From the NCBI RefSeq assembly GCF_001436695.1, contig NZ_AYZG01000051.1, positions 86,211 to 150,210 on the forward strand: a stretch of DNA of 64,000 nucleotides, read 5' to 3'. Below are positions 34,808 through 54,037 of this stretch, piece after piece; the stretch's first letter is position 1; every line of letters starts with the position of its first letter. Source of the stretch: Lactobacillus taiwanensis DSM 21401 (lineage in GTDB: Bacteria; Bacillota; Bacilli; Lactobacillales; Lactobacillaceae). Below the pieces are notes generated by a model that worked only from the letters and a program-made list of their open reading frames with translations, was not told the DNA's origin and did no database searches. Position numbers and translations under genes: made by a program.

Positions 34808-35183
34808 GCAAATTTCGAGCGATCGCGGTTAACTTATGTTAGCTGAGGAAAGTCCACGCACGCACAAGCTGAGATGCTTGTAGTTTTTGTACTCAGCCCA
34901 ATAAGCTGGGGGACTTGTTTTTAACAAGTTACGGCGGAAAAAGCACTAAATCATTTTTTGACATGTGTGACTATCCTGAAAAGTGCCACAGTGACGAAGC
35001 AGTAAAGGAAACTTTACTGGTGGAACGAGGTAAACCCTGCAAGCGGGCAACCCAAATTTGGTAGGGGCGCTTTTGTCTAAGCAAATGAACTAAAGACAAA
35101 GTCATTTTTATGAAGATAGATGGTCGCTGAAGATAGGATTTAACCGGATCCTGTTGGAACAGAACGTGGCTTATAGAAATTTG
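34808..35183 (+). ncRNA. rnpB: RNase P RNA (type B)
   Basis: Helix P1 is formed by CAAATTTC (34809-34816) and GAAATTTG (35176-35183). Conserved core blocks are present: GAGGAAAGTCCACGC near 34846, ACAGTGACGAAGCAG with GGTGGAACG(A)GGTAAACCC around 34990-35040, GCGGGCAACCCAA, and AACAGAACGTGGCTTATAG near the 3' end. Length of about 375 nt and the internal helices fit the Bacillus type B form. It processes the 5' ends of tRNA precursors with RnpA. Placement between gpsB and ypsC matches Bacillus. Confidence 0.96.
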
Positions 35184-37611: not shown

Positions 37612-37653
37612 AAAAGGCGAATACTACATGAGATTTGTAGTGTTCGCCTTTTT
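37611..37653. terminator. bidirectional terminator
   Basis: AAAAAGGCGAA / TTCGCCTTTTT outer arms with inner TACTACA / TGTAGTG, ending both the phosphoesterase gene (plus) and degV copy 1 (minus). Confidence 0.85.
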
Positions 37654-38575
37654 AATCTTTAACTGCCTGAGAATTAACATTTAGAAGTGGTTTACCATTT
37701 TCATCAAAATAGGAATCTAAGTCTCGACACCAAATCATTGCCATTGTGTGTTGACCAACATGAACTCCAACTACTGGACCGATAATACTTTGATCAACCT
37801 TAACTTTAGGAAAACTTGTTTGATAATCGTTAATCCATTCAGCTTCCCTTTCTGCATCATCTGCATGGAAAATTGTTAATTGAATTGGATAAGGCATATT
37901 CGACGTTAGCTTATCAAAGTCCTTTTTAATATGATTGTAGGCACGCTTGTATTGCCTTTCTTTAGCAATTGCAGAAATTTTACCTTCGTTTTGTACATCC
38001 ATTGATAAAATGGGCTTGATTTTTAGAATAGAACCGACAAAGCTAGCCGCATTAGATAAACGACCTGTTCTCTTCAAATGATTTAAGTTGTCTACCATAA
38101 ATCTTACATCTGTAGTGTTTCTTAAGTCTTTTAGGTCATGCATGATTAAGTCAATATCAGCACCAGCTTTTACTAGTCGCCCAGCTAAAATAGCAGCATC
38201 TGCTTCACCCGCACAGGTGATTTTACAGTCAAAGGGATGAATCTTAATCCGTGTTTCTTCATTTGCTACGCTTAATACATTATTGTAAAAACTAGAGATT
38301 CCACTTGAGAGCGTAATAATAATTAAATCTGTGTAACTCTCATCAACATATTTATCAACATACTTTTTAACTGTTCCGACTGAAGGTTGAGACGTAGTAG
38401 GAAGAGTAGTAGATGTATTTAGCTTCTCATAAAATTCATGAAAACCAGTATCAATTAAGTCTAGATATTCTTTTTTGTCCCAGATGATTGGAATCGGTAA
38501 TACATCAATACCGTATTTTTCACATTGTTCTTTAGTTAAATAGGATGAACTGTCAGTTAAAACGCCAATCTTCAT
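37652..38575 (-). CDS. DegV-family fatty-acid-binding protein, copy 1
   Basis: About 307 residues. N-terminus MKIGVLTDSSSYLTKE (DegV signature D-S), TTLPTTSQPSVG (ligand T-S-Q-P), ITLSSGISSFYNN, and DNLNHLKRTGRLSNA (second domain). DegV/FakB proteins hold a fatty acid for phosphorylation by FakA. ATG 38575 is chosen: GGAGG lies 11 nt upstream and the sequence then starts at the conserved first strand; the longer frame from 38608 adds 11 unlike residues. Confidence 0.88.
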   Translation of the reverse strand: MKIGVLTDSSSYLTKEQCEKYGIDVLPIPIIWDKKEYLDLIDTGFHEFYEKLNTSTTLPTTSQPSVGTVKKYVDKYVDESYTDLIIITLSSGISSFYNNVLSVANEETRIKIHPFDCKITCAGEADAAILAGRLVKAGADIDLIMHDLKDLRNTTDVRFMVDNLNHLKRTGRLSNAASFVGSILKIKPILSMDVQNEGKISAIAKERQYKRAYNHIKKDFDKLTSNMPYPIQLTIFHADDAEREAEWINDYQTSFPKVKVDQSIIGPVVGVHVGQHTMAMIWCRDLDSYFDENGKPLLNVNSQAVKD

Positions 38576-38708
38576 AAAGTTATTTACCTCCATATGTTTG
38601 CTTAACATTATAGTCTAGAAAGCCTATTTAAACAAAAACGTAAATTTGCGTTATTATTTGTTACAATAAAGGTAATCAATAAATAGGGTGTGACCTAAAT
38701 TCTAAATC

Positions 38709-39053
38709 ATGAAAAAACATTTTATTTTTTTAGGAGCTCCTGGAGTAATTTATTACTCTTGGCTCTTAGCACTGATTTTTGTAGCCTTTATCATTGGATA
38801 TGAAAGCAATAAATCAATTAGCTATCCTGCAATTATTTTAGGAGCTATTTTTGTGGTTATTGTTATCTATACTTGGCTTAATTCTTACTTTCAAAAAGAA
38901 ACAGATGATTTTTGGGTAAAACTACCGTACCGTCAAAAATTTAAGCTTCAAAGTTTAGAAATTAAATGTCAATGGAAGGCATTCGTAATCTATAAAGCAA
39001 AAAGTAAAATTAATACTTATTTGTTTTTAGCACTTAAAAGAAAGAAGAAATGA
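38709..39053 (+). CDS. small membrane protein, EbsA-like
   Basis: 114 residues, two hydrophobic segments (about 17-36 and 42-60), then a soluble basic C-terminal part ending KRKKK. Size and two-helix layout are like EbsA proteins of lactobacilli, but no firm motif is seen, so the family name is tentative. It overlaps fhs by 4 nt and begins the run ebsA-fhs-lspA-rluD-carA-carB. A plus-strand -10 TACAAT is at 38662-38667. Confidence 0.5.
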
Positions 39054-40729
39054 ATTTGAAGTCAGATATCGAGATCGCACAAAGTACTAAGGAATTACCA
39101 ATTACAGAAATTGCCAAAAAAATTGGCCTTAAGCCTGAAGAAATTGAACTTTATGGCAGCGATAAGGCTAAGATTAGCTGGAGTGGTATTAAGCGAATTA
39201 AAAAAAATAATAAGCTTGGTAAGCTAATCTTAGTCACTTCAATTAGTCCAACTCCTGCTGGTGAAGGGAAGTCAACCATTACTATTGGGTTAGGGGATGC
39301 GATTAGCAACCAACTTCACAAAGATACCTTAATTGCATTAAGAGAACCCTCAATGGGACCTGTTTTTGGGTTAAAGGGTGGAGCTACTGGTGGTGGTTAT
39401 GCGCAAATTATCCCCATGGAAGATATTAACTTGCACTTTACAGGAGATATGCATGCTCTAACTAGTGCTATTGATACTTTAGCTGCTTTAGTTGATAACT
39501 ATATTTATCAGGATAATAGCTTAGAGCTAGATCCAAATCGAATTTTGTTAAAACGTGGAATTGACGTTAATGATCGTACTTTAAGGAAAATCACTATTGG
39601 ACAAGGATCACGTTTTAATGGAATTGAACATGAAGCCAGCTTTGCAATTACAGTAGCTAATGAATTGATGGCTATTTTATGTTTAGCAACTGACATTAAT
39701 GACCTAAAGAAACGAATTGGAAATATTTTAGTTGGCTTTTCTGTTAAAGATGAACCTGTTTATGTTAAAGACTTAGGGTTTGAAGGAGCTATTGCTGCTC
39801 TTTTAGCAACTGCATTAAAGCCTAATTTAGTTCAAACGCTTGAACATACTCCTGCAATTGTTCACGGTGGACCATTTGCAAATATTGCACATGGTGCAAA
39901 TTCAGTTATTGCTACTAATACAGCTTTACATTTAAGTGACTATGTTTTAACTGAGGCTGGCTTTGGCGCAGATCTTGGTGGACAGAAATTTATGGATTTT
40001 GTTTCAAATCACCTAGATAAGCGTCCAGATGCAGTTGTCGTTGTTGCAACTGTTAGAGCATTGAAGTATCAAGCTGAAGGAACAACTGATCACTTAGATG
40101 AAGAAAATATCCCAGCACTAGAGAAGGGATTTGCTAACTTAAAACGTCATATGGAAAATATGGCACACTATGGTGTACCGGTAATGGTGTTAATTAATAA
40201 ATTTGCTAGCGATACTGATCAAGAACTGTCTAAGCTAAAAGAACTTGTTCAAAAGGATGGGTTTGAATGTGAAGTTGTTTCTTATCATGATGAAGGCTCT
40301 AAAGGCGGAATTAAGGCAGCTGAGAAGGTAGTAGAGTTAACTAATAAAGTTGGTGACTTTACCTCCGTTTATCAGTCAGAAGATTCTGTTGAAGAGAAAA
40401 TTAGTAAAATTGCTCATAATATCTATCATGCTAAGGATATTGAATATTCAGATAAGGCTAAGACGCAATTAGCTGAAATTAAGAAAATTGATAAAAATCA
40501 CTTACCAGTAATTATTGCTAAGACGCAATATAGCTTTACTGATAAAAAGAAGATTTTAGGAGCACCAGAAGACTTTACTTTGCATGTTAAAGATCTGGCA
40601 TTAAAAAATGGTGCTGGTTTTATCGTTGTTGCAACTGGTTCAATTTTAGATATGCCAGGATTACCGAAACATCCTGCTGCCTTAGATATTGATGTAGATA
40701 ATGATGGAAAGATTTCAGGATTGTTCTAA
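39050..40729 (+). CDS. fhs: formate-tetrahydrofolate ligase
   Basis: 559 residues, full family length. P-loop [15 protein letters not shown] near residue 65, [53 protein letters not shown], and [17 protein letters not shown] at the end. It makes 10-formyl-THF from formate, THF and ATP for purine and fMet synthesis. Overlaps the upstream small gene (ATGA) and shares one base with lspA. Confidence 0.96.
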
Positions 40730-41193
40730 TGAATAAAGCTAAACAAGCCTTATATTTAATAATTTCTTTATTAGTAGTTATAGCTGATCAGGTTTTAAAA
40801 AGTTATATCGTCTCAAATTTTAAAATCGGTGAAGAAAAAACAGTTATTCCGGGTATTTTATCATTTACTTACTTACAAAATGATGGGGCTGCCTGGAATA
40901 TCTTTAGCGGTCAAATAGTTTTATTCTATTTGATTAGTATCGCTGCAATTGCAGTTGTAATTTATTATCTTTTTAATCCCAGATATAAAAATGGTCTCTT
41001 TGATACTGGTTTAGCCTTAGTCTTAGGCGGAATTATTGGTAATTTTATTGATCGCTTACATCTCAAATATGTAATTGATATGCTGCAGTTAGATTTTATT
41101 AATTTTAATATTTTTAACGTTGCGGATAGTGCGATTACCATTGGAATTATCCTAGTTTTTATCTATTTAATATTTATTAGTGAAAAGGACTAG
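40729..41193 (+). CDS. lspA: lipoprotein signal peptidase II
   Basis: 154 residues, four membrane segments. Catalytic aspartates in GGIIGNFIDRLH and FNVADSAITIG, plus the N-terminal V-I-A-D-Q-V-L-K, all standard. It cleaves diacylglyceryl prolipoproteins. Located between fhs and rluD, the common lspA-rluD pairing. Confidence 0.95.
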   Translation: MNKAKQALYLIISLLVVIADQVLKSYIVSNFKIGEEKTVIPGILSFTYLQNDGAAWNIFSGQIVLFYLISIAAIAVVIYYLFNPRYKNGLFDTGLALVLGGIIGNFIDRLHLKYVIDMLQLDFINFNIFNVADSAITIGIILVFIYLIFISEKD

Positions 41194-41207: not shown

Positions 41208-42122
41208 ATGACTAAAGATTATAGGTTAGTAATTAACGGAGAAAAGGGACGTTTAGATAAAATTATTGCGGATAAAGTCACCGATTTGAGTCGAACTAAA
41301 ATTAAAGAATTGGTAAATGATCAAAATATTTTAGTTAATGATAAAGCTGAAAAGGTATCTTATAAAGTTCAGTCTGGGGATGTAATTAAGATTACAATTC
41401 CTCCGGTTAAGCCATTGACTTTAGAACCCCAAAATTTGCATCTTGATATTGTATATGAAGATGAAGATGTAATAGTTGTTAATAAGCCTCAAGGGATGGT
41501 TGTTCATCCCTCAGCAGGTCACCCTGATCATACTCTTGTAAATGGTTTGCTCTACCATACCAAAAATTTAGCTGACAGTTTTGAAAGCTTTCGCCCAGGA
41601 ATTGTACATCGAATTGACAAAGATACTTCTGGCTTATTAATGGTTGCTAAAAACGATCGTGCTCGCGAAAGTTTAGAAAAGCAATTGGCTAAAAAGATTA
41701 ATAAAAGAGAATATTTAGCAATTGTACATGGTAATTTTGAAACTAAAAATGGAGTTATTGATGCGCCTATTGGTAGAAATCCTAATAATAGAAAGCAAAT
41801 GGCGGTTAATCCTAAAGGGAAAGCTGCAGTAACGCATTTCACAGTACTAGAACAATTTAAAAACTATAGTCTAGTTAAGTGTATTCTTGAGACAGGAAGA
41901 ACTCATCAAATTAGAGTTCATATGAAATATATTGGGCACCCTCTGGCAGGAGATCCACTGTATGGTCCTAAGAAGACGTTAGCTGGTCATGGACAATTTT
42001 TACATGCTAAAACTTTAGGTTTTTATCAACCATCAACTAACGATTGGCTTGAATTTACTGCACCATTACCAACAATTTTTGAAAAACAATTAGAAAATTT
42101 ACGACAAGAAATGAAGCATTAA
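41208..42122 (+). CDS. rluD: 23S rRNA pseudouridine synthase RluD family
   Basis: 304 residues. N-terminal S4 domain (about 12-75, RLDKIIADKVTDLSRTKIKE) followed by the RluA-type catalytic domain: VVHPSAGHPD, GIVHRIDKDTSGLLMVAKN with the catalytic Asp, GRTHQIRVHMKYIGHPLAGD. It makes pseudouridine in 23S rRNA helix 69 or a related site. Follows lspA by 14 nt and precedes carA by 3 nt. Confidence 0.92.
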   Translation: MTKDYRLVINGEKGRLDKIIADKVTDLSRTKIKELVNDQNILVNDKAEKVSYKVQSGDVIKITIPPVKPLTLEPQNLHLDIVYEDEDVIVVNKPQGMVVHPSAGHPDHTLVNGLLYHTKNLADSFESFRPGIVHRIDKDTSGLLMVAKNDRARESLEKQLAKKINKREYLAIVHGNFETKNGVIDAPIGRNPNNRKQMAVNPKGKAAVTHFTVLEQFKNYSLVKCILETGRTHQIRVHMKYIGHPLAGDPLYGPKKTLAGHGQFLHAKTLGFYQPSTNDWLEFTAPLPTIFEKQLENLRQEMKH

Positions 42123-42125
42123 TTT

Positions 42126-43181
42126 ATGAAACGATATTTGATTCTTGAAGATGGAACAGCTTTTTCGGGACATGGATTTGGTGCACCAATTACTGCAACA
42201 GGTGAATTAGCCATTCAAACCAGTAACTTTGGTTACCAAGAAGCAATTTCAGATCCAGCAAACTTTGGTAAAATTTTAGCTTTTACAACTCCAATGATTG
42301 GCGGTAGTGGAATAAATGCAATTGATTATGAATCGATTGATCCAAGTGTTAGAGGAATAATTGCTAATGACATTGCATTTCATATTTCTGCAAATCCAAC
42401 TTTTCAAGATCTAGACGATTTTTTAAAAGAAAAGAGGATACCAGCAATTTATGGAGTTGATACCCGAGCTTTAGTCCAAAAGTTAAAAAATAAAAGGGTA
42501 ATTAAGGCCTCAATTATGGATACTGACGATGCACATGCCTTCGATCAAATTAAGGCTCTTGTCTTACCCAAAAATAAAACGGCACAAATTTCGACAACTC
42601 ATCCCTATGCGGCACCAAATGTTGGAAAAACCGTAGCAGTTATTGATCTAGGATTAAAGCACTCATTATTACGCTCGCTTTCTTTGCGCAAAATTAACAG
42701 TGTTGTTTTACCGTATAATGCATCAATTTATGACATTATTAGTCTTCGTGCAGACGCTATTGTTATTTCTAATGGACCAAGCAGAGTAGAAGAGATAGCA
42801 CCTTTCTTAAAGCCAGTATTTGATAAATTTTATGGTAAATTACCTATTTTAGGAATTGGGTTAGGCTTTTTAGCTATTAGTAATTATTTGAATTTAGAAT
42901 TATTAGATTTAATTCCCGCTTATAATGGCAGTAATTTCCCAGTTATTGAACAAACTAATAATCGTATTTGGCAAACAGCCATGAATATCGATCAGTTAGT
43001 TGTTCCTGATAGTTTGTCATTAAATTTATCTCGTAAGTATTTTGACCTAAGATCAGATCTTTTAGCTGGCTATTGTATTAAGGAAGATAAAGTATTAGCG
43101 GCTGCGTTTAATCCGGAAGGCTCACCCGGAAATTTTGATGCTGCTAGTATCTATGATCAGTTTATGAATATGATGGAGTAA
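42126..43181 (+). CDS. carA: CarA-like protein with a dead glutaminase site
   Basis: 351 residues, colinear with carbamoyl-phosphate synthase small subunit: N-terminal CPSase domain (GYQEAISDPANFGKILAFT, GVDTRALVQKL), then the GATase domain. The nucleophile motif G-I-C-L-G-H-Q reads GIGLGFL (Cys replaced by Gly245), the H-P-E motif reads FNPEGSPG (His replaced by Asn329), and G-P-G-D is GPSR. Two of three triad residues are lost, so it cannot hydrolyse glutamine. The frame is intact and translation signals are normal. No PyrR-type leader: it starts 3 nt after rluD. Divergent function, ammonia-dependent use or early decay are all possible. Confidence 0.85.
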   Translation: MKRYLILEDGTAFSGHGFGAPITATGELAIQTSNFGYQEAISDPANFGKILAFTTPMIGGSGINAIDYESIDPSVRGIIANDIAFHISANPTFQDLDDFLKEKRIPAIYGVDTRALVQKLKNKRVIKASIMDTDDAHAFDQIKALVLPKNKTAQISTTHPYAAPNVGKTVAVIDLGLKHSLLRSLSLRKINSVVLPYNASIYDIISLRADAIVISNGPSRVEEIAPFLKPVFDKFYGKLPILGIGLGFLAISNYLNLELLDLIPAYNGSNFPVIEQTNNRIWQTAMNIDQLVVPDSLSLNLSRKYFDLRSDLLAGYCIKEDKVLAAAFNPEGSPGNFDAASIYDQFMNMME

Positions 43182-43184
43182 AAT

Positions 43185-46100
43185 ATGCCTTTACATAACG
43201 AAATTAATAAAGTACTTGTCATTGGAGCTGGGCCAAGTATTGTTGGAGAAGTTTCAGAACTTGATATTCTTGCTAAACAAGCCTTAACAGCATTTGCAGA
43301 GAGTAATGTTCAAGTAGTCTTAATTAATCCTAATCCAGCAACTGTTACTACAGATCCTCGAGCTAATGTAAATGTATATCTTGAGCCAATGACGCTACCT
43401 TTTGTTAAGCGGATTATTAGAATGGAAAAACCAGATGCAATTATTCCTGCTTTTGGTGGAAAGCCAGCTTTAAAACTGACTAAAGAACTATTAGAGTCTG
43501 GTATTTTAACTCAAATGAATATTGAGTTGTTAACAATCAATAGTTTAGCTCTTAGCTTATCAAGCCCACATAACTTTTATACTTTTCTTAAGGCTAATAA
43601 GATTTCGGTTGCTAATCAATGGCTTCTTGAAAAAGAAGATGATTTAAAGCGTGTAATTGAACATGCACACTTTCCATTACTTTTGGCAAAAAAACAACAC
43701 TATCGTCCTGATAATACGATTTCATTAGAGAATTTAAAGCAATTAGAACAATATTTTTTGGATGAAGAAAATGACGATCATTTTCAGTGGAAAGATTATC
43801 GTATAAGCGAAGATCTATCAAATTGGGAAGAATTGATCTTTGATATTATTCGAGATAATAATGGTAATTTTTGCTTTGTTGGAAATACTGGAAGCTTGGA
43901 GCCTGTTGGTATCAATTCATCTGACTCGTTATTAGTAACGCCGATTTTAACCAGAAATAATAATCAAATTCAGCGATTAAGAAATTGCTGTCGTAAGATT
44001 GCTAATTGCCTTAATTTACATGGAGCACTGAGTATTCATTTTGCAGTTAAACAAGCAGGTGAGGACTTTAATTTTAAGGTATTAAGCGTAAAACCACGTT
44101 TAACACAAACTAGCTTACTTTCGTATCGAAGTGGCGTATATTCAATTGGGTATGTAACTGCTAAGGTTGCGCTTGGGTATAACTTAAATGAAATTACTGA
44201 TCCACAGTCTGGAATATCAGCAGCAGTTGATCCGATTCAAGATGCTTGTTTTGTAAAACTACCATATTGGTCATTTACTGAGGCTGGTTATAATCACTAT
44301 TTTCTCAATAATAAAACTGCTTCTGGAGGTCAAGCATTAGGAGTAGGACGCAACTTTGAAAGTGCATTTTTAAAAGCTTTGCAAGCTACTACAGGTTTTT
44401 CAAATAATATAAAAACCTTTGAAAAAGAGTGTAAAAAAAGTGAAGAGCAATTATTGCAAGATCTAAGTAAACCTACTGAACTACATTTAATTATTCTTTT
44501 GGCAGCTATTGCTAAAGGAATTAGTTATCATACTTTGCATAAGGTTTTGCATGTGCACCTAGTATTTTTGCAAAAGTTTAATCATATTTTGATTTTACTT
44601 AAGAAATTGCAAAATGATGAACTTACTGCTGATTTACTACTTAAGGTGAAAAAAAATGGCTTTTCTAATCGATTAATTGCTGAAGTAACGCATCAAGACG
44701 AAAAAGACATTTCTAACCTATGTAAAAAATGGTCAATTAAACCAAGTTATATTGAAATTGATGGGACAGCTGGTTTAATTCATCCTAATATTCAAGCTGT
44801 CTATAGTAGTTATGGAATTGAGGATGAAATAAAACCACTTTCTAATGCAAAGAAGTGCCTTCTCTTGGGATTAAAGCCATTTCAGGTATCATTAACAGAT
44901 GAATTTGATTATATGCTTTATCATGCTGCCGAGACTCTAAAAGAGCAAGGAATAAGCCCAGTTATTATTAGTAACAATCCTGAAAGTATTAGTGCAGCAT
45001 ACAATGTATGTGATCGAGTATATTTTGAACCGATTACGCTAGAAAATATCTTAGATGTAGCTAATAAGGAAAATATTAAAGAAATTGTAACTCAATTTTC
45101 TGGTAAACAAATTAATGAGTATCGACTTCAATTACTAGAACATGGATTAGCAATTTTGGCACAAAATAACTTGAATGAGATCTTAAAAGAGGATCATTCT
45201 AATGAAGTATATCAAGCAGGCGTTAAACCAGTTCCTGCACTTCAATGTGATAATGAAGATAAAATTTTTGATTTTGTAAAGCAAATTGGATTTCCTGTTT
45301 TAATTGGCGGTTCAAGCAATGGTAAGAAGCAAAAATCCGCAGTTGTTTTTGATTTACCTGCACTACAAAGATACATTGCTGAAAATGCATTAGAGCACAT
45401 AAGTATTTCTAAGTTTATTGAAGGTAAAAAATATGAAGTGACTGCTATTTCTGATGGAGAAAATGTTACTATTCCTGGAATTATTGAACACTTTGAACAA
45501 ACTGGATCTCATGCCAGTGATTCAATTGCCGTTTATCGTCCGCAAAATCTATCTACTAATGATCAACGTAGATTGAGGGATAGTGCAATTAGTATTGCTA
45601 CTAATTTACATTTAAAAGGACCAGTTAATTTACACTTTTTACTTGCCAATAATCAAATATATTTGCTACAAATAAAAAGCTATTCTGGTCATAATGTTGC
45701 TTTTCTAACTAAGGCATTAAAACGAGATATTACGTCAATTTCTATGCAAGTTTTACTTGGTAAAAAATTATCTGAATTAGAATTATCAAGTGATATTTGG
45801 CCTTCGAATGATTTAATTCATGTAAAGATGCCTGTCCTTTCATATTTATCCTATCAGAGTGAAAATACATTTGATTCTAAAATGAAAACATCTGGTAGTG
45901 TAATGGGACGTGCTAAACATTTACCTACAGCTTTATTTAAAGGTTACGCAGGCAGTGATTTGATGATTTCAACTTATGGAACGGTCTTTATTTCAGTTAA
46001 AGATTCAGAAAAACATAACGCGATTAAAATCGCTGCTAGATTTCATAGATTAGGATTTAAACTTTTAGCAACTGAAGGAACAGCAAATGTATTAGCTGAA

Positions 46101-46349
46101 GAAGGTATTACAACGGGAATTATTGGGAAGGTACAAGAAGGAAGTAATAGTTTGCTTGAAAAGATTAGACAACATCGAATTAATCTCGTAATTAACGTCA
46201 CAAGTCTCTCGGATTCGGCTAGTCATGATGCCATTATGATTAAAGATGCCGCCTTGAGTACACATATTCCTGTCTTTTCTAGTTTACAATCAGCACAAGA
46301 TATCTTAGCCGTTCTAGAAACTTTAGCTATGACTACACAGCCATTGTAA
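43185..46349 (+). CDS. carB: CarB-like protein with degenerate ATP-grasp sites
   Basis: 1054 residues, full length for CPSase large subunit, in the same order: two ATP-grasp halves, an oligomerisation region (~400-545) and a C-terminal MGS-like domain (~925-1054). In half 1 the N-x-Q and E-x-N-P-R motifs are S283-I-H285 and S301-V-K303-P-R305. In half 2 they are N815-L-H817 and Q829-I-K831, with Arg replaced by Tyr833. The glycine-rich R-P-S-x-x-L-G-G loops are also gone (AKKQHYRPDN; GGSSNGKKQ). Metal and ATP ligands are thus missing in both halves, while the N-terminal GAGPSIVG and the MGS fold remain. Carbamoyl phosphate synthesis is unlikely. Confidence 0.85.
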   Translation: MPLHNEINKVLVIGAGPSIVGEVSELDILAKQALTAFAESNVQVVLINPNPATVTTDPRANVNVYLEPMTLPFVKRIIRMEKPDAIIPAFGGKPALKLTKELLESGILTQMNIELLTINSLALSLSSPHNFYTFLKANKISVANQWLLEKEDDLKRVIEHAHFPLLLAKKQHYRPDNTISLENLKQLEQYFLDEENDDHFQWKDYRISEDLSNWEELIFDIIRDNNGNFCFVGNTGSLEPVGINSSDSLLVTPILTRNNNQIQRLRNCCRKIANCLNLHGALSIHFAVKQAGEDFNFKVLSVKPRLTQTSLLSYRSGVYSIGYVTAKVALGYNLNEITDPQSGISAAVDPIQDACFVKLPYWSFTEAGYNHYFLNNKTASGGQALGVGRNFESAFLKALQATTGFSNNIKTFEKECKKSEEQLLQDLSKPTELHLIILLAAIAKGISYHTLHKVLHVHLVFLQKFNHILILLKKLQNDELTADLLLKVKKNGFSNRLIAEVTHQDEKDISNLCKKWSIKPSYIEIDGTAGLIHPNIQAVYSSYGIEDEIKPLSNAKKCLLLGLKPFQVSLTDEFDYMLYHAAETLKEQGISPVIISNNPESISAAYNVCDRVYFEPITLENILDVANKENIKEIVTQFSGKQINEYRLQLLEHGLAILAQNNLNEILKEDHSNEVYQAGVKPVPALQCDNEDKIFDFVKQIGFPVLIGGSSNGKKQKSAVVFDLPALQRYIAENALEHISISKFIEGKKYEVTAISDGENVTIPGIIEHFEQTGSHASDSIAVYRPQNLSTNDQRRLRDSAISIATNLHLKGPVNLHFLLANNQIYLLQIKSYSGHNVAFLTKALKRDITSISMQVLLGKKLSELELSSDIWPSNDLIHVKMPVLSYLSYQSENTFDSKMKTSGSVMGRAKHLPTALFKGYAGSDLMISTYGTVFISVKDSEKHNAIKIAARFHRLGFKLLATEGTANVLAEEGITTGIIGKVQEGSNSLLEKIRQHRINLVINVTSLSDSASHDAIMIKDAALSTHIPVFSSLQSAQDILAVLETLAMTTQPL

Positions 46350-46435: not shown

Positions 46436-48127
46436 TTATATTTTTTTATTTAAAACATCTTGTTCATTTGGTGTAACTTCAATTGAATTTTGACCAGTAT
46501 AAATTACAAAACCAGGTTTAGCACCATTAGGTTTCTTAATCTTTTTAACTTGAACATAGTCAACAGGAATATGACTAGAGTTTTTACCCTTTGAGAAATA
46601 AGCAGCAATTTCAGCGGCTTCAGCAATATCTTTATCGCTTGGATCCCTGTCTTGTAAGATAACATGGGAACCAGGCATATTTTTAACGTGGAACCAGTAA
46701 TCTCGCTTATCGGCTTTCTTTAAAGTTAACCAATCGTTTTGATAATTATTTTTACCAACAAGAACTTTTTTACCATCACTTAATTTAAAGGTATTTAAAT
46801 TCTTTTCATTAATTTTCTTCTTACGACGACGATTATGATTTTGAGATTTTAAGTAGCCTTGATTAATTAACTCGTCGTTTATAGCATCAATATCTTGTGG
46901 ATCTGCATTATCAATAGCAGTTTGAATTGAATCAAAATAGTCTAGGTTTTCATTTGCAAGTTTAATTTGTTCATTAACATGCTTAATAGAATTTCTTAAC
47001 TTTTGATAGCGAGTAAAATATTTTTGCGCATTTCTAGCAGGAGAGAGGGCAGGATTAAGTTTGATACTTAAAGGCTGATTATTTTCGTAATAATTAGGTA
47101 AATCAATACTAGTCATACCTGCCTTTACTTCATGTAAATAAGCATTAAGTAATTCGCCCTTAATGCGATATTCTTCTGAATTTTCTGCTTGATCCAATTG
47201 TTTACGAAGCTTAATAATCTTTTTCTTAAGTTTTTTAATTTCATTATTAACAATATTTTCAATTCGTTTAGATTTTTGTTTTACCCATTCTCGATTAGCT
47301 TGTTCACGATAAAAATCATCAAGAACCTTGTTGACGTCATCATTTGAGTAAATTAATTTTAAGTCAAGATGATATGGTAAATAGGTGTATACACGATCTT
47401 TATGTTTAATAGTCTGTAAAACATAGCCCTTAGGACGTGCAAATTGATTAAAAAATGTCTGCAATGAACTATAAGAAAAATCATCTTCTAAATAGCCAGT
47501 AAATTCTTTTTTATCATCCCCATCTAGTCCATTGAATTGTTTTACAAAGTCCATGGCTTCAGGATATTTATTTTTTAGATCATTAAATTGATCAGCAGAT
47601 AGTTCAAATCCATTAATTCCTGGCAAAAGTGGTGGTAATTCATAAGGTGCATGTGGTAATAACAACCGAGCACGATTCTCATCAGGATTAATTCTTTTCA
47701 GTAAATCAATAATCTTATTATCTTCACTATTATACAAGATAACATTGCTATGCCTACCCATTAATTCGACTGATAAAACAAGTTTCATTTCATCGCCAAG
47801 TTCATTACGATTGGAAAAATAAAAATTAACGATTCGTTCTACACCAACTTGTTCGATCTTTTTAAGAATTGAACCCTCTAAATACTTTCTTAATACCATT
47901 ACAAATGTAGGGGCAACATCAGGGTTAACAATAGAATCATTTGTAAGATAAAAACGAGGTGTTTGAGCATTTGCTGAAATAAGTAAGCGTTGATTTTTAC
48001 GGTCTTTTCGAAAATTCAGAACTAAATCTTGATCAAAAGGCTGGTATATTTTAGTAAGCTTTCCTCCAACTAGGGTAGGAGAGAGGTCTTGTAAAAGACT
48101 ATGAATAAATAAGCCATCAAAAGCCAT
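46436..48127 (-). CDS. rqcH: ribosome quality control protein RqcH (FbpA/NFACT)
   Basis: About 563 residues. NFACT-N at the start (MAFDGLFIHSLLQDLSPTL), paired helix-hairpin-helix and a long coiled coil (about 270-330 and 375-420), then the NFACT-R domain with WLTLKKADKRDYWFHVKNM and PGSHVIL (D-x-W-x-H-x-x-x-x-x-G-S-H). RqcH adds alanine tails to stalled chains on 50S subunits; older names call it a fibronectin-binding protein. ATG 48127, with AAGGAGG 9 nt upstream, is chosen over the frame opening at 48187. Confidence 0.92.
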   Translation of the reverse strand: MAFDGLFIHSLLQDLSPTLVGGKLTKIYQPFDQDLVLNFRKDRKNQRLLISANAQTPRFYLTNDSIVNPDVAPTFVMVLRKYLEGSILKKIEQVGVERIVNFYFSNRNELGDEMKLVLSVELMGRHSNVILYNSEDNKIIDLLKRINPDENRARLLLPHAPYELPPLLPGINGFELSADQFNDLKNKYPEAMDFVKQFNGLDGDDKKEFTGYLEDDFSYSSLQTFFNQFARPKGYVLQTIKHKDRVYTYLPYHLDLKLIYSNDDVNKVLDDFYREQANREWVKQKSKRIENIVNNEIKKLKKKIIKLRKQLDQAENSEEYRIKGELLNAYLHEVKAGMTSIDLPNYYENNQPLSIKLNPALSPARNAQKYFTRYQKLRNSIKHVNEQIKLANENLDYFDSIQTAIDNADPQDIDAINDELINQGYLKSQNHNRRRKKKINEKNLNTFKLSDGKKVLVGKNNYQNDWLTLKKADKRDYWFHVKNMPGSHVILQDRDPSDKDIAEAAEIAAYFSKGKNSSHIPVDYVQVKKIKKPNGAKPGFVIYTGQNSIEVTPNEQDVLNKKI

Positions 48128-48223
48128 AAGTATCCTCCTTAAAAATAGTACATATATTATACTCTTTAATGTAAAGAATTGTTTCATTCAACAATGTGAT
48201 TTCTTCACTAATATTGTTAAATC

Positions 48224-48838: not shown

Positions 48839-49726
48839 GTGAAGATAGCACTTATTACAGATAGTACTAGTGATATAAGCCCAGAAGAAGCCAAGGCCAA
48901 CGATATTACTGTAGTACCTATTCCAGTTATTATTGGTGATAAACAGTATATGGATGGGGTAGATATGACTGCAGAGAAACTTTTTGAGTTGGAGCGCGAT
49001 GGAGCACCTTTTCCTAAGACTTCTCAACCTAGCCCAGGTACTATGCTTGAGTTATGCCAAAAATTAAAAGATGAAGGATATGAAGCTATTATTGCTATTC
49101 CATTAACATCTGGAATTTCTGGTTTTTATAATAGTTTAGTTACTTTGGCTCATAATCATCCTGAATTTAATTTATATCCTTATGATCCTGCAATGACAGT
49201 TCGTTCTATGGGAAATTTAGTACTTGCAGCTGCTAAAATGATCAAAAATGGATGGGAACCTAAGGAAATCTTAGCCAAATTAGACAAAATTAGAGATACA
49301 ATTGATGTTCTATTTGTTGTAGATGATTTAAATAATCTAGTTCGCGGTGGTCGCTTGAGTAACGCTAGTGCGATTATTGGTACCATGCTTCAAATTAAAC
49401 CTTTGTTAACCTTTAAAAAAGATGATTATCAAATTGTAAGTTTTGATAAGGTTCGTTCAATGAAGCGAGCTGTTAAAAAGGCTGAAAATATAACTATTGA
49501 ACGGATTAACAATTCACCAATTAAAGATAACTTAGCATTAACAGTTTACAATTCAAACGATTTAGATCAAGCTACTAAAGTTAAAGATGACTTCCAAGCC
49601 GCTTTTCCTAATATGACCATTAAGATGTTCAACTTTAGTTCTGTAATTGCCACATATTTAGGAGAAAAATCTCTAGGCATTACTTGGATGGCAGATATAG
49701 ATAAAATGGACTTTAGTAAAAAATAA
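48839..49726 (+). CDS. DegV-family fatty-acid-binding protein, copy 2
   Basis: 295 residues. MKIALITDSTSDISPEEA at the N-terminus, PFPKTSQPSPGTM (T-S-Q-P), IPLTSGISGFYNS, and VVDDLNNLVRGGRLSNA. FakB-like role in loading fatty acids on FakA is inferred from the family. Start is GTG 48839 with AAGGTAGG upstream. It differs enough from copy 1 (about 10 kb away, opposite strand) that the two probably prefer different acyl chains. Confidence 0.9.
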   Translation: MKIALITDSTSDISPEEAKANDITVVPIPVIIGDKQYMDGVDMTAEKLFELERDGAPFPKTSQPSPGTMLELCQKLKDEGYEAIIAIPLTSGISGFYNSLVTLAHNHPEFNLYPYDPAMTVRSMGNLVLAAAKMIKNGWEPKEILAKLDKIRDTIDVLFVVDDLNNLVRGGRLSNASAIIGTMLQIKPLLTFKKDDYQIVSFDKVRSMKRAVKKAENITIERINNSPIKDNLALTVYNSNDLDQATKVKDDFQAAFPNMTIKMFNFSSVIATYLGEKSLGITWMADIDKMDFSKK

Positions 49727-52179: not shown

Positions 52180-53218
52180 TTTTTCGGTCTCCTCGAACGT
52201 AGGTTTGTATATATTATATCTTATTTGCCAATTCTTTGCTATTATCCCCTAATCTTGGCAAAGTAGGAGAGAGGGGGACGGAGTATGTGTCGTCGGTAGA
52301 TAAATACTGAAAAATGATTCTTAGTAAAGTTTTATCATTGGTCTATGAAGATTTTAAGATAAATTTCTCAAAAATAAGTTTAAAAGTCTTAAATAACTAT
52401 ATAATTAAACAATATATAATAATCATTGATGATTTAATACTTTTTTATGTACTGTGCGAATATAAAAAGTAAAATTAGTTTAGTTTTGCTTATACACAAG
52501 ACTTTAGCTTGTTTTTATTCTCTTATCAGAGAAGGAGAGCCATAATAAAAGTGTATTTTTTCAATTTTACAATAATTTACTGCAATAAATTAATTGATTA
52601 GATTGGTAAAAAATTATTCAAGATAGATCATAGCTTACTTAAAATTTCTGATTTTATATAATTATTTACGAAAATTAACTTTTAAAAGTAAAAGACATAT
52701 AGCTTAAAAAGCTATAATTTCAATAGTATAAGTGTATACCTATCAGTAAAATTATTGTTTTAATGATAGGTACTATTAATGGAATTACTCTTATTTCTAG
52801 TAGTAAAATGTAGATTTTATGGACTTTGTTTGTATTCTACGTCCAGGAATTATATAAGCTATTTAGATAACTAAATTTAGTGATAATAAACTTATGGAAT
52901 ATTATGTGATATTGTCGTTTAATTATTAACTTATTAATCAATAGATGATTTAGAAGCTGTAGAATGGCCGTCTCAGTATGTAATTATTGATAGAGAAATT
53001 ATCATACTCGGTAAAAATAAATTTTAAAAATAATCTATAATACTTAGACTGAACGAAATCAAAATTTTAAATTGTGATTTATAAAAATGCTTCAGTGTAT
53101 TAAAAAATAAATATAAATCAAACCGTTTGTAAGAAATAAAATTAATAATATCTGTATTTAAGTTAAATTGATGATGGTTAAGTATCTTGGTAGTTTGTTC
53201 TCTTCATTTTTATACACT

Positions 53219-53246
53219 ACTTTACATAATATATATTACACGAAGT
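53219..53246 (-). other. dif: dif site (chromosome dimer resolution)
   Basis: 28 bp. Read on the minus strand: left arm ACTTCGTGTAA, centre TATATA, right arm TTATGTAAAGT. This is the 11-6-11 dif layout, and by my recollection 24 of 28 positions equal the Bacillus subtilis dif. The right (XerD) arm TTATGTAAA-T is the most conserved part and is intact. Its place next to xerS and at the switch of gene orientation supports it. Confidence 0.82.
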
Positions 53247-53292
53247 ATATGTAAAGTAATAACCTCTCAATTAAGAATACTTCGCCAATAAT

Positions 53293-53330
53293 AAAAAAAG
53301 TTTTGAGAGTTAAACTTTTACTCAAAACTT
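53293..53330 (-). terminator. intrinsic terminator of the DUF1275 gene
   Basis: AAGTTTTGAG / CTCAAAACTT arms (53299-53308, 53321-53330); minus-strand exit is a T7 run. Confidence 0.82.
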
Positions 53331-53338
53331 CATTAAAT

Positions 53339-54037
53339 TTATTTATTTTCTGAAAATTTAAATTTCTTTCGTTTACTTAATGAAAATGTATAAATAATAT
53401 TAATCACTCCCAAAAGCAAAACTGCAAACCAAATCGTTTTTAAAACAAAAATTTTCTGTAGTAATGCAGACACAATTGCCCCAAAGGCGAAAGCAATTAC
53501 TAAAAACATATAGTTAACGGCTGCGTTATGCTGAGATTTATCCTCACCAAAGAAATATGCGCTCCAAGCAACTACAGATTTTTTTAAATTACCGGTTGTA
53601 AATGCATTATTATAGCCCATACCTTCAATTTTACTAAAGGATGCATTTTGAACAGCTAAGCCAAAAGCAATTACTGGAACCACATAGTAGTTTGGAACAC
53701 TTTTAGGTACAAATCCTACTCCTAAACAAATAAGTAATATTGGAAATAGACAAAATACTCGCCAATAATTACTTTTTACGTATTTATGGAAAAGACCTAC
53801 TAATAAAAGACCTAACGTAAATGCAATAAATGTTGTAGCACGGTTTAACATGCCAGCGACATTATGATCAGCCAATGCTGACGCAAAAAAGATAACGTTT
53901 CCTGTCTGACCCGCAGATAGAGTGTGTCCCCTTTGAATATATGTGTAAGCATCAATAAATCCAGCTGAAAAGGTTAAAGCAGTTGCTAAAATTCTTGATT
54001 CGGATGGACAATATTTATCGTTAAAAAATAGATTCAT
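53339..54037 (-). CDS. YoaK/DUF1275 membrane protein
   Basis: About 232 residues, six or seven hydrophobic segments. The DUF1275 signature is present: GFIDAYTYIQRGHTLSAGQTG near residue 25, and YNNAFTTGNLKKS in the middle (family F-T-T-G-x-L). Transport function is presumed, substrate unknown. ATG 54037 is 10 nt from GGGAGA; the longer frame begins with a GTG upstream of that site. Confidence 0.82.
   Translation of the reverse strand: MNLFFNDKYCPSESRILATALTFSAGFIDAYTYIQRGHTLSAGQTGNVIFFASALADHNVAGMLNRATTFIAFTLGLLLVGLFHKYVKSNYWRVFCLFPILLICLGVGFVPKSVPNYYVVPVIAFGLAVQNASFSKIEGMGYNNAFTTGNLKKSVVAWSAYFFGEDKSQHNAAVNYMFLVIAFAFGAIVSALLQKIFVLKTIWFAVLLLGVINIIYTFSLSKRKKFKFSENK

Follow-up and report, generated by a model that had tools for sequence, protein, structure and literature searches.

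A carbamoyl-phosphate synthase pair lacking catalytic residues is maintained by purifying selection across Lactobacillus

The closest described system to the genes reported here is the carbamoyl-phosphate synthase (CPS) of Escherichia coli, formed by CarA and CarB (PDB 1a9x, 1bxr, 1c30). In a 64,000-nucleotide (nt) stretch of Lactobacillus taiwanensis DSM 21401 (contig NZ_AYZG01000051.1, positions 86,211 to 150,210; the window), we analyzed two adjacent genes, CarA-like and CarB-like, that share with the E. coli enzyme the split into two subunits, the gene order, the domain order, the predicted CarB fold, the effector residues of the MGS domain and the acidic Glu of CarA. Unlike the E. coli proteins, they lack the CarA Cys and His, show an altered glutamine pocket (S47T/A, Q273L) and retain neither the CarB metal ligands nor the glycine-rich loops; we refer to them as the dead pair. 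The same genome also encodes a canonical CarAB, a homologous full-length pair that, unlike the dead pair, has its catalytic residues and occupies another locus. Dead pairs in other genera are alike in their position at the rluD locus, in the replacement of Cys by Gly and in the decay of the ATP-grasp halves. Regulatory pseudoenzymes generally keep a fold and a ligand site without catalysis, and we know of no two-subunit CPS pseudoenzyme. Titles and opening lines of abstracts listed from open-licence literature included no description of a dead CPS pair in lactobacilli or of a two-subunit CPS pseudoenzyme; a prior description may exist.

The CarA-like gene (window positions 42126..43181, + strand) is an intact frame of 351 amino acids, and its product combines an N-domain with a class-I GATase domain (PF00988 and PF00117, both over the Pfam cut-off). 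The original prediction held that catalytic residues had been lost in all three active sites of the pair, and alignment to E. coli K-12 bears out the exact residues that it named, each opposite a residue taken as catalytic in the E. coli enzyme. In CarA-like, Cys269 is replaced by Gly245 and His353 by Asn329, while the acid is retained as Glu331; all 72 Lactobacillus rows carry G245, N329 and E331, and none therefore has the catalytic Cys and His. Position analyses were based on 41 representatives under 85% identity, selected from the 72 fetched loci, and on a canonical set of 11 rows plus E. coli. The glutamine pocket, which we take to comprise S47, Q273, N311 and G313 (E. coli numbering), is not kept in these 41 rows: S47 is replaced by T or A in 40 and Q273 by L in all, G313 is kept in 5 and N311 in 35. 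With the pocket altered in this way, and particularly given the loss of Q273 and S47, the idea that the CarA-like protein senses glutamine was dropped. In alignments to PDB chains, Gly245 faces Ser of 1c30_B, an entry titled as a C269S mutant, and Asn329 faces Asn of 1a9x_B. The AlphaFold2 (AF2) model of CarA-like is of modest quality (predicted local distance difference test, pLDDT, 77; predicted template modeling score, pTM, 0.53), and its linker 147-166 has low confidence.

Losses in the CarB-like protein (43185..46349, + strand; 1054 amino acids in an intact frame) affect both ATP-grasp halves. Relative to E. coli K-12 CarB, Q285 is replaced by H, E299 by S and N301 by K in half 1, and Q829 by H, E841 by Q and N843 by K in half 2; both glycine-rich loops are replaced as well, and neither half preserves the metal/ATP ligands. 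The Asn that bridges the metal has become Lys in all 41 rows in half 2 and in 30 of the 41 in half 1, a substitution that could stand in for the charge of the metal. The domain order is complete and ends in an MGS domain (Pfam match 2.3e-18, residues 946-1031), consistent with the expectation that this allosteric domain had survived. According to the AF2 model (mean pLDDT 82.7, pTM 0.84), which Foldseek aligned to E. coli CPS large chains with template modeling (TM) scores of 0.86-0.87 over 1080-1088 columns, CarB-like retains the CPS fold in prediction.

The dead pair, its catalytic residues lost, is under purifying selection across species. Median ratios of nonsynonymous to synonymous substitution rates (dN/dS) over 25 pairs, compared between species and not between strains, were 0.032 for CarA-like and 0.053 for CarB-like, well below 1, next to 0.051 for rluD, 0.058 for lspA (22 pairs), 0.039 for fhs (24 pairs) and 0.039 for rqcH; pairs had a CarB dS of 0.1-1.2 and came from 59 genomes having all six genes. 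The loss is old: Gly245 is written with all four Gly codons over the 72 Lactobacillus rows (25 GGC, 20 GGA, 19 GGT and 8 GGG). Intact frames are likewise the rule, with at least 300 amino acids of CarA-like in 72/72 loci and at least 1000 of CarB-like in 71/72. A CarB-like gene was found in 74 of 75 Lactobacillus genomes, two of which (G040 and G063) gave a partial match only. Among the 60 of these genomes that are of good quality (completeness of 90% or more, contamination no higher than 5%), all 60 carry it and 59 have it full-length and uninterrupted (hand count), so that stops in sister genomes, a check proposed at the outset, are rare, with one broken CarB (G016). The original prediction of a repurposed pseudoenzyme is thus supported by dN/dS far below 1 and by the rarity of breaks, and we consider it very probable that the pair has been selected as such.

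The second, canonical carAB that the original prediction proposed to look for is present elsewhere in the same genome. Its CarB lies beside pyr genes (contig C27, 49770-52946), scores 1557 bits against TIGR01369 compared with 647 for the dead protein, and is 28% identical to the latter; the accompanying CarA carries GICMGHQ and HPDATPG. Two PyrR copies, 64% identical to each other, flank these pyr genes (G000:C27:45769-46299 and 52991-53524). Across the good-quality genomes, canonical CarB is intact in 45/60 and absent or broken in 15/60 (hand count). Canonical CarB, PyrR and a PyrB over cut-off were all missing from seven genomes (G022, G036, G038, G039, G044, G045 and G074), in each of which both dead genes are intact. 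For these counts the pyrB cut-off was that of TIGR00670 (236.95 bits), so that G022 (158 bits) and G036, G038 and G074 (112-118 bits) were counted as lacking pyrB; PyrR was scored as present above 170 bits, and the 15-genome and 7-genome lists were compiled by hand. Relative rates of the dead genes in the six testable genomes of the seven were not raised compared with genomes that have canonical CarB (p 0.58 for CarA-like, 0.80 for CarB-like), in a test covering 56 of the 61 genomes with a completeness of 90% or more, among them 13 of the 15 without canonical CarB and 6 of the 7 without the three genes. Beyond what had been predicted, the dead pair coexists with canonical carAB in the window's genome, and its conservation extends over the genus and a large part of the family.

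Three parts of the dead pair carry the constraint in Lactobacillus: the MGS domain, the N-domain of CarA and the second ATP-grasp pocket, which has been remodelled. Dead and canonical proteins were compared over one shared set of 27 genomes (351 pairs). Identity hardly differed in the MGS domain (0.724 dead vs. 0.755 canonical) and slightly higher in the dead CarA N-domain (0.803 vs. 0.772), but lower in the dead GATase domain (0.681 vs. 0.828), in ATP-grasp 1 (0.573 vs. 0.902) and in ATP-grasp 2 (0.634 vs. 0.844). The MGS domain of CarB-like (45960..46334, +; residues ~926-1050, by alignment from E. coli 937 on) holds the presumed effector residues S937, K943, T963, T966, K982, N1004 and D1015; the E. 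coli positions 948, 954, 974, 977, 993, 1015 and 1025 are fixed in 41/41 rows, and K943, T963, T966, K982, N1004 and D1015 are present in 71/71. The second ATP-grasp pocket (45294..45695, +; residues ~704-837) contains G708, K749, H776, H817, Q829, K831, Y833 and H836. At the presumed pocket positions, conservation exceeds that of the remaining domain in half 2 (p=0.006) but not in half 1 (p=0.17). Among the new half-2 residues, H817 and Y833 occur in 69/71 rows, the others examined in 71/71 and G708 in 41/41. The proposal of a pyrimidine or ornithine sensor fares unevenly: the MGS effector residues are kept, while at the ornithine site, as we presume its positions to be, E783, D791 and S792 are kept but 892, 907, 1040 and 1042 are changed. 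At 892 and 1040, the canonical enzymes of lactobacilli likewise deviate from E. coli.

Outside of Lactobacillus, a dead-CarA profile was run on 301 Lactobacillaceae genomes of 38 genera, yielding 624-698 bits in 16 Lactobacillus genomes, 539 in a single other genome (G100) and at best <=359 elsewhere. We read 28 rluD loci from 26 other genera, a non-random set of which 8 came from matches of this search and 20 from a listing of rluD. Six contain a full canonical pyr operon, 20 a Cys-less CarA and 2 something else. All 20 Cys-less proteins have Gly in place of Cys, and their His is replaced by Asn, Phe, Asp, Ser, Glu or Gln. Locus L155 (genome G106) holds an intermediate pair in which the CarA Cys is kept, His is replaced by Leu and the CarB metal ligands are lost in both halves; CarAB is missing at the rluD locus of L173. 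The rluD locus thus probably once held a pyr operon whose CarAB became the dead pair in most genera read. Either one origin with later replacements or several origins may account for this: dead forms occur in several places in the CarA tree, where a single clade is not rejected (approximately unbiased test, p=0.139), and a tree of neighbour genes, obtained with a quick method and with some rows sparsely filled, implies 3 changes between the dead and canonical-operon states. A motif scan for the A/GIGLGHE form found 35 of 395 genomes of the order; by hand count, all belong to the 76 Lactobacillaceae, and the 319 genomes of eight further families gave no match. Of the 35 matching loci, 20 were read, and 19 are CarA-like whereas one (L178) is not. 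As the motif covers this form only, other dead forms may occur outside the family.

The explanation we favour, to which as a whole we give an even chance, is that a vertically inherited CPS pair has been kept as a non-catalytic complex acting as a nucleotide sensor or regulator. The pair would have remained in place at the lspA-rluD-pyr locus that is ancestral in the Lactobacillaceae, would have lost the glutaminase and both ATP-dependent steps, and would have been retained as a two-subunit assembly. Its working part in Lactobacillus is probably ligand binding, by the MGS domain with its nucleotide effector site and by the rebuilt second ATP-grasp pocket, in which fixed Lys and Gln stand where Asn and Glu held metal. 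The nucleotide bound may be uridine monophosphate (UMP), inosine monophosphate (IMP) or a ligand resembling phosphoribosyl pyrophosphate, and the bound state would be relayed through the conserved CarA N-domain and CarB scaffold to a putative partner. Nucleotide binding by the MGS domain is slightly favoured over its absence, and a regulatory output is plausible with somewhat less than an even chance.

Several observations weigh against this explanation. Taken over its full length, CarB varies more in the dead than in the canonical form (identity 0.614 vs. 0.852), and the effector (UMP/IMP) and ATP-grasp pocket positions are those presumed from E. coli. In G016 (locus L055), the CarB-like frame is broken near residue 950 into pieces of 966 and 99 amino acids; no other of the 72 fetched loci has a broken dead CarB, and this one may be a draft error. 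A gap in a draft assembly can make a pyr gene appear missing, and most of the seven genomes without these genes are drafts; G044 and G074 are single contigs. Replacement of residues leaves some residual activity conceivable, and a different chemistry is possible. Finally, of the 19 dead loci outside of Lactobacillus and G100, 17 (L151, L154, L157-L161, L165-L172, L175 and L176) have a CarB of only 643-901 amino acids that stands beside a Cys-less CarA and lacks both the MGS domain and a large part of the second ATP-grasp half. All of these short reading frames are closed by a stop codon, and the sequence beyond it gave no MGS match (only 91 bases could be checked in L171); CarB is full length in L162 and L164. 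Since MGS is missing in 17/19 of these loci, MGS sensing cannot be the function common to all dead pairs.

These loci differ from those of Lactobacillus not only in their mostly short, MGS-less CarB but also in half-1 residues that are partly kept and in an adjacent pyrR, and they bring up a different role, in which the dead CPS works with PyrR and modulates it, e.g., as a sensor of bicarbonate or carbamoyl phosphate. In 16 of the 19 loci, pyrR lies between rluD and dead carA, 13 times directly before the latter and 3 times with pyrP in between. PyrR RNA elements, searched for in six sources, precede pyrP at the dead-CarAB loci L149 (13246-13369, -) and L162 (2705-2797, +), and the bicarbonate-side half-1 residues E215, G241 and H243 are kept in 16/17 short CarBs. 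A second PyrR of L. plantarum, PyrR2, is reported to respond to inorganic carbon (PMC3582564, by reference to another paper), which we count in favour of a PyrR-linked role. Whether L. plantarum pyrR2 lies at the rluD locus was looked up by locus tag, which yielded nothing. Against a PyrR-linked role stands the absence of pyrR from the locus in Lactobacillus (in the window, the gap is 3 nt), G100, L157, L160 and L169, and the window yielded no PyrR RNA element at or above the gathering score. Moreover, seven good Lactobacillus genomes without a PyrR match keep the dead pair, so PyrR is not obligatory; partnership with PyrR was therefore dropped as the role in Lactobacillus and kept as a rival for the other genera. 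As a general explanation it is unlikely, although adjacency of pyrR and the reported PyrR2 role may point to a related regulatory use in other genera. An additional idea, a trade-off between MGS and pyrR, fails because L157, L160 and L169 have neither.

The rebuilt half-2 pocket could alternatively house a new enzymatic activity that does without the CPS ligands. G715, K761, H829, Q841, K843, Y845 and H848 (E. coli numbering) are fixed or nearly so, and H788 and an EH.EQ.GSHASDS segment are retained. The metal-binding Glu/Asn pairs, however, are gone from both halves, and we know of no precedent; we regard this explanation as improbable. Still less credible is a regulatory or dominant-negative partnership with live CPS through mixing of subunits. 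The same fold and subunit make-up would permit it, and both pairs coexist in 45/60 good genomes, but of the 15 good genomes that lack an intact canonical CarB, 14 retain the dead pair whole (it is broken in G016), and rates were not raised in the 13 testable ones. Decay of a pseudogene pair, or a very recent loss, has in its favour the missing catalytic residues and the broken frame of G016, yet it is rejected with near certainty, as neither relaxed selection nor frequent frame breaks were found (dN/dS 0.03-0.05, 59/60 uninterrupted) and recency is refuted by the same Gly and Asn fixed in 72/72 rows with synonymous turnover.

The dead genes, with intact frames of the predicted 351 and 1054 codons, are tightly coupled to a cluster of fhs (39050-40729, +), lspA (40729-41193, +) and rluD (41208-42122, +), as had been anticipated: spacers between rluD and CarA-like and between CarA-like and CarB-like are 3 nt each. 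A convergent RqcH/FbpA-like gene (46436..48187, -) marks the downstream boundary of the locus. The names fhs, lspA and rluD, which also appear in the original prediction, and rqcH-like are those we presume to apply. Over the 72 Lactobacillus loci, rluD and lspA are upstream neighbours in 71 each and fhs in 64, and the rqcH-like gene follows in 67; in four of the five exceptions the sequence stops no more than ~1.5 kb from CarB-like, whereas in L079 rqcH is truly missing within 6 kb of sufficient sequence. Two DegV-like paralogs (37652-38608, -, and 48839-49726, +) bracket the locus, in many relatives as well, and an RNase P RNA of bacterial class B lies at 34811-35178. Scans for promoter-like and terminator-like sites gave counts below and near the shuffled mean, respectively, and were not used.

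Standard profiles label both proteins as CPS, as each exceeds one NCBIfam equivalog cut-off (CarA-like, NF009475, 412.6 bits, cut-off 221; CarB-like, NF003671, 671.7 bits, cut-off 599) while falling short of another (TIGR01368, 240.9 bits, cut-off 307.35; TIGR01369, 646.9 bits, cut-off 1027). Through this labelling, metabolic models would credit enzyme-lacking Lactobacillus species with a carbamoyl-phosphate synthesis that is most likely absent. For the family, we tentatively raise the possibility, less probable than the reading favoured for Lactobacillus, that Lactobacillaceae repeatedly turned the CPS pair of the rluD locus into a dead sensor of nucleotide or carbon status, with the same Cys to Gly change in every lineage, and that in Lactobacillus this sensor came to work outside of pyrimidine synthesis and outlived the real enzyme. 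Lactobacillus comprises bacteria of the gut, of food and of the vagina, and its conservation of an entire two-subunit enzyme with several active sites, stripped of their chemistry, offers a clear case in which the acquisition of regulatory roles by pseudoenzymes can be studied.

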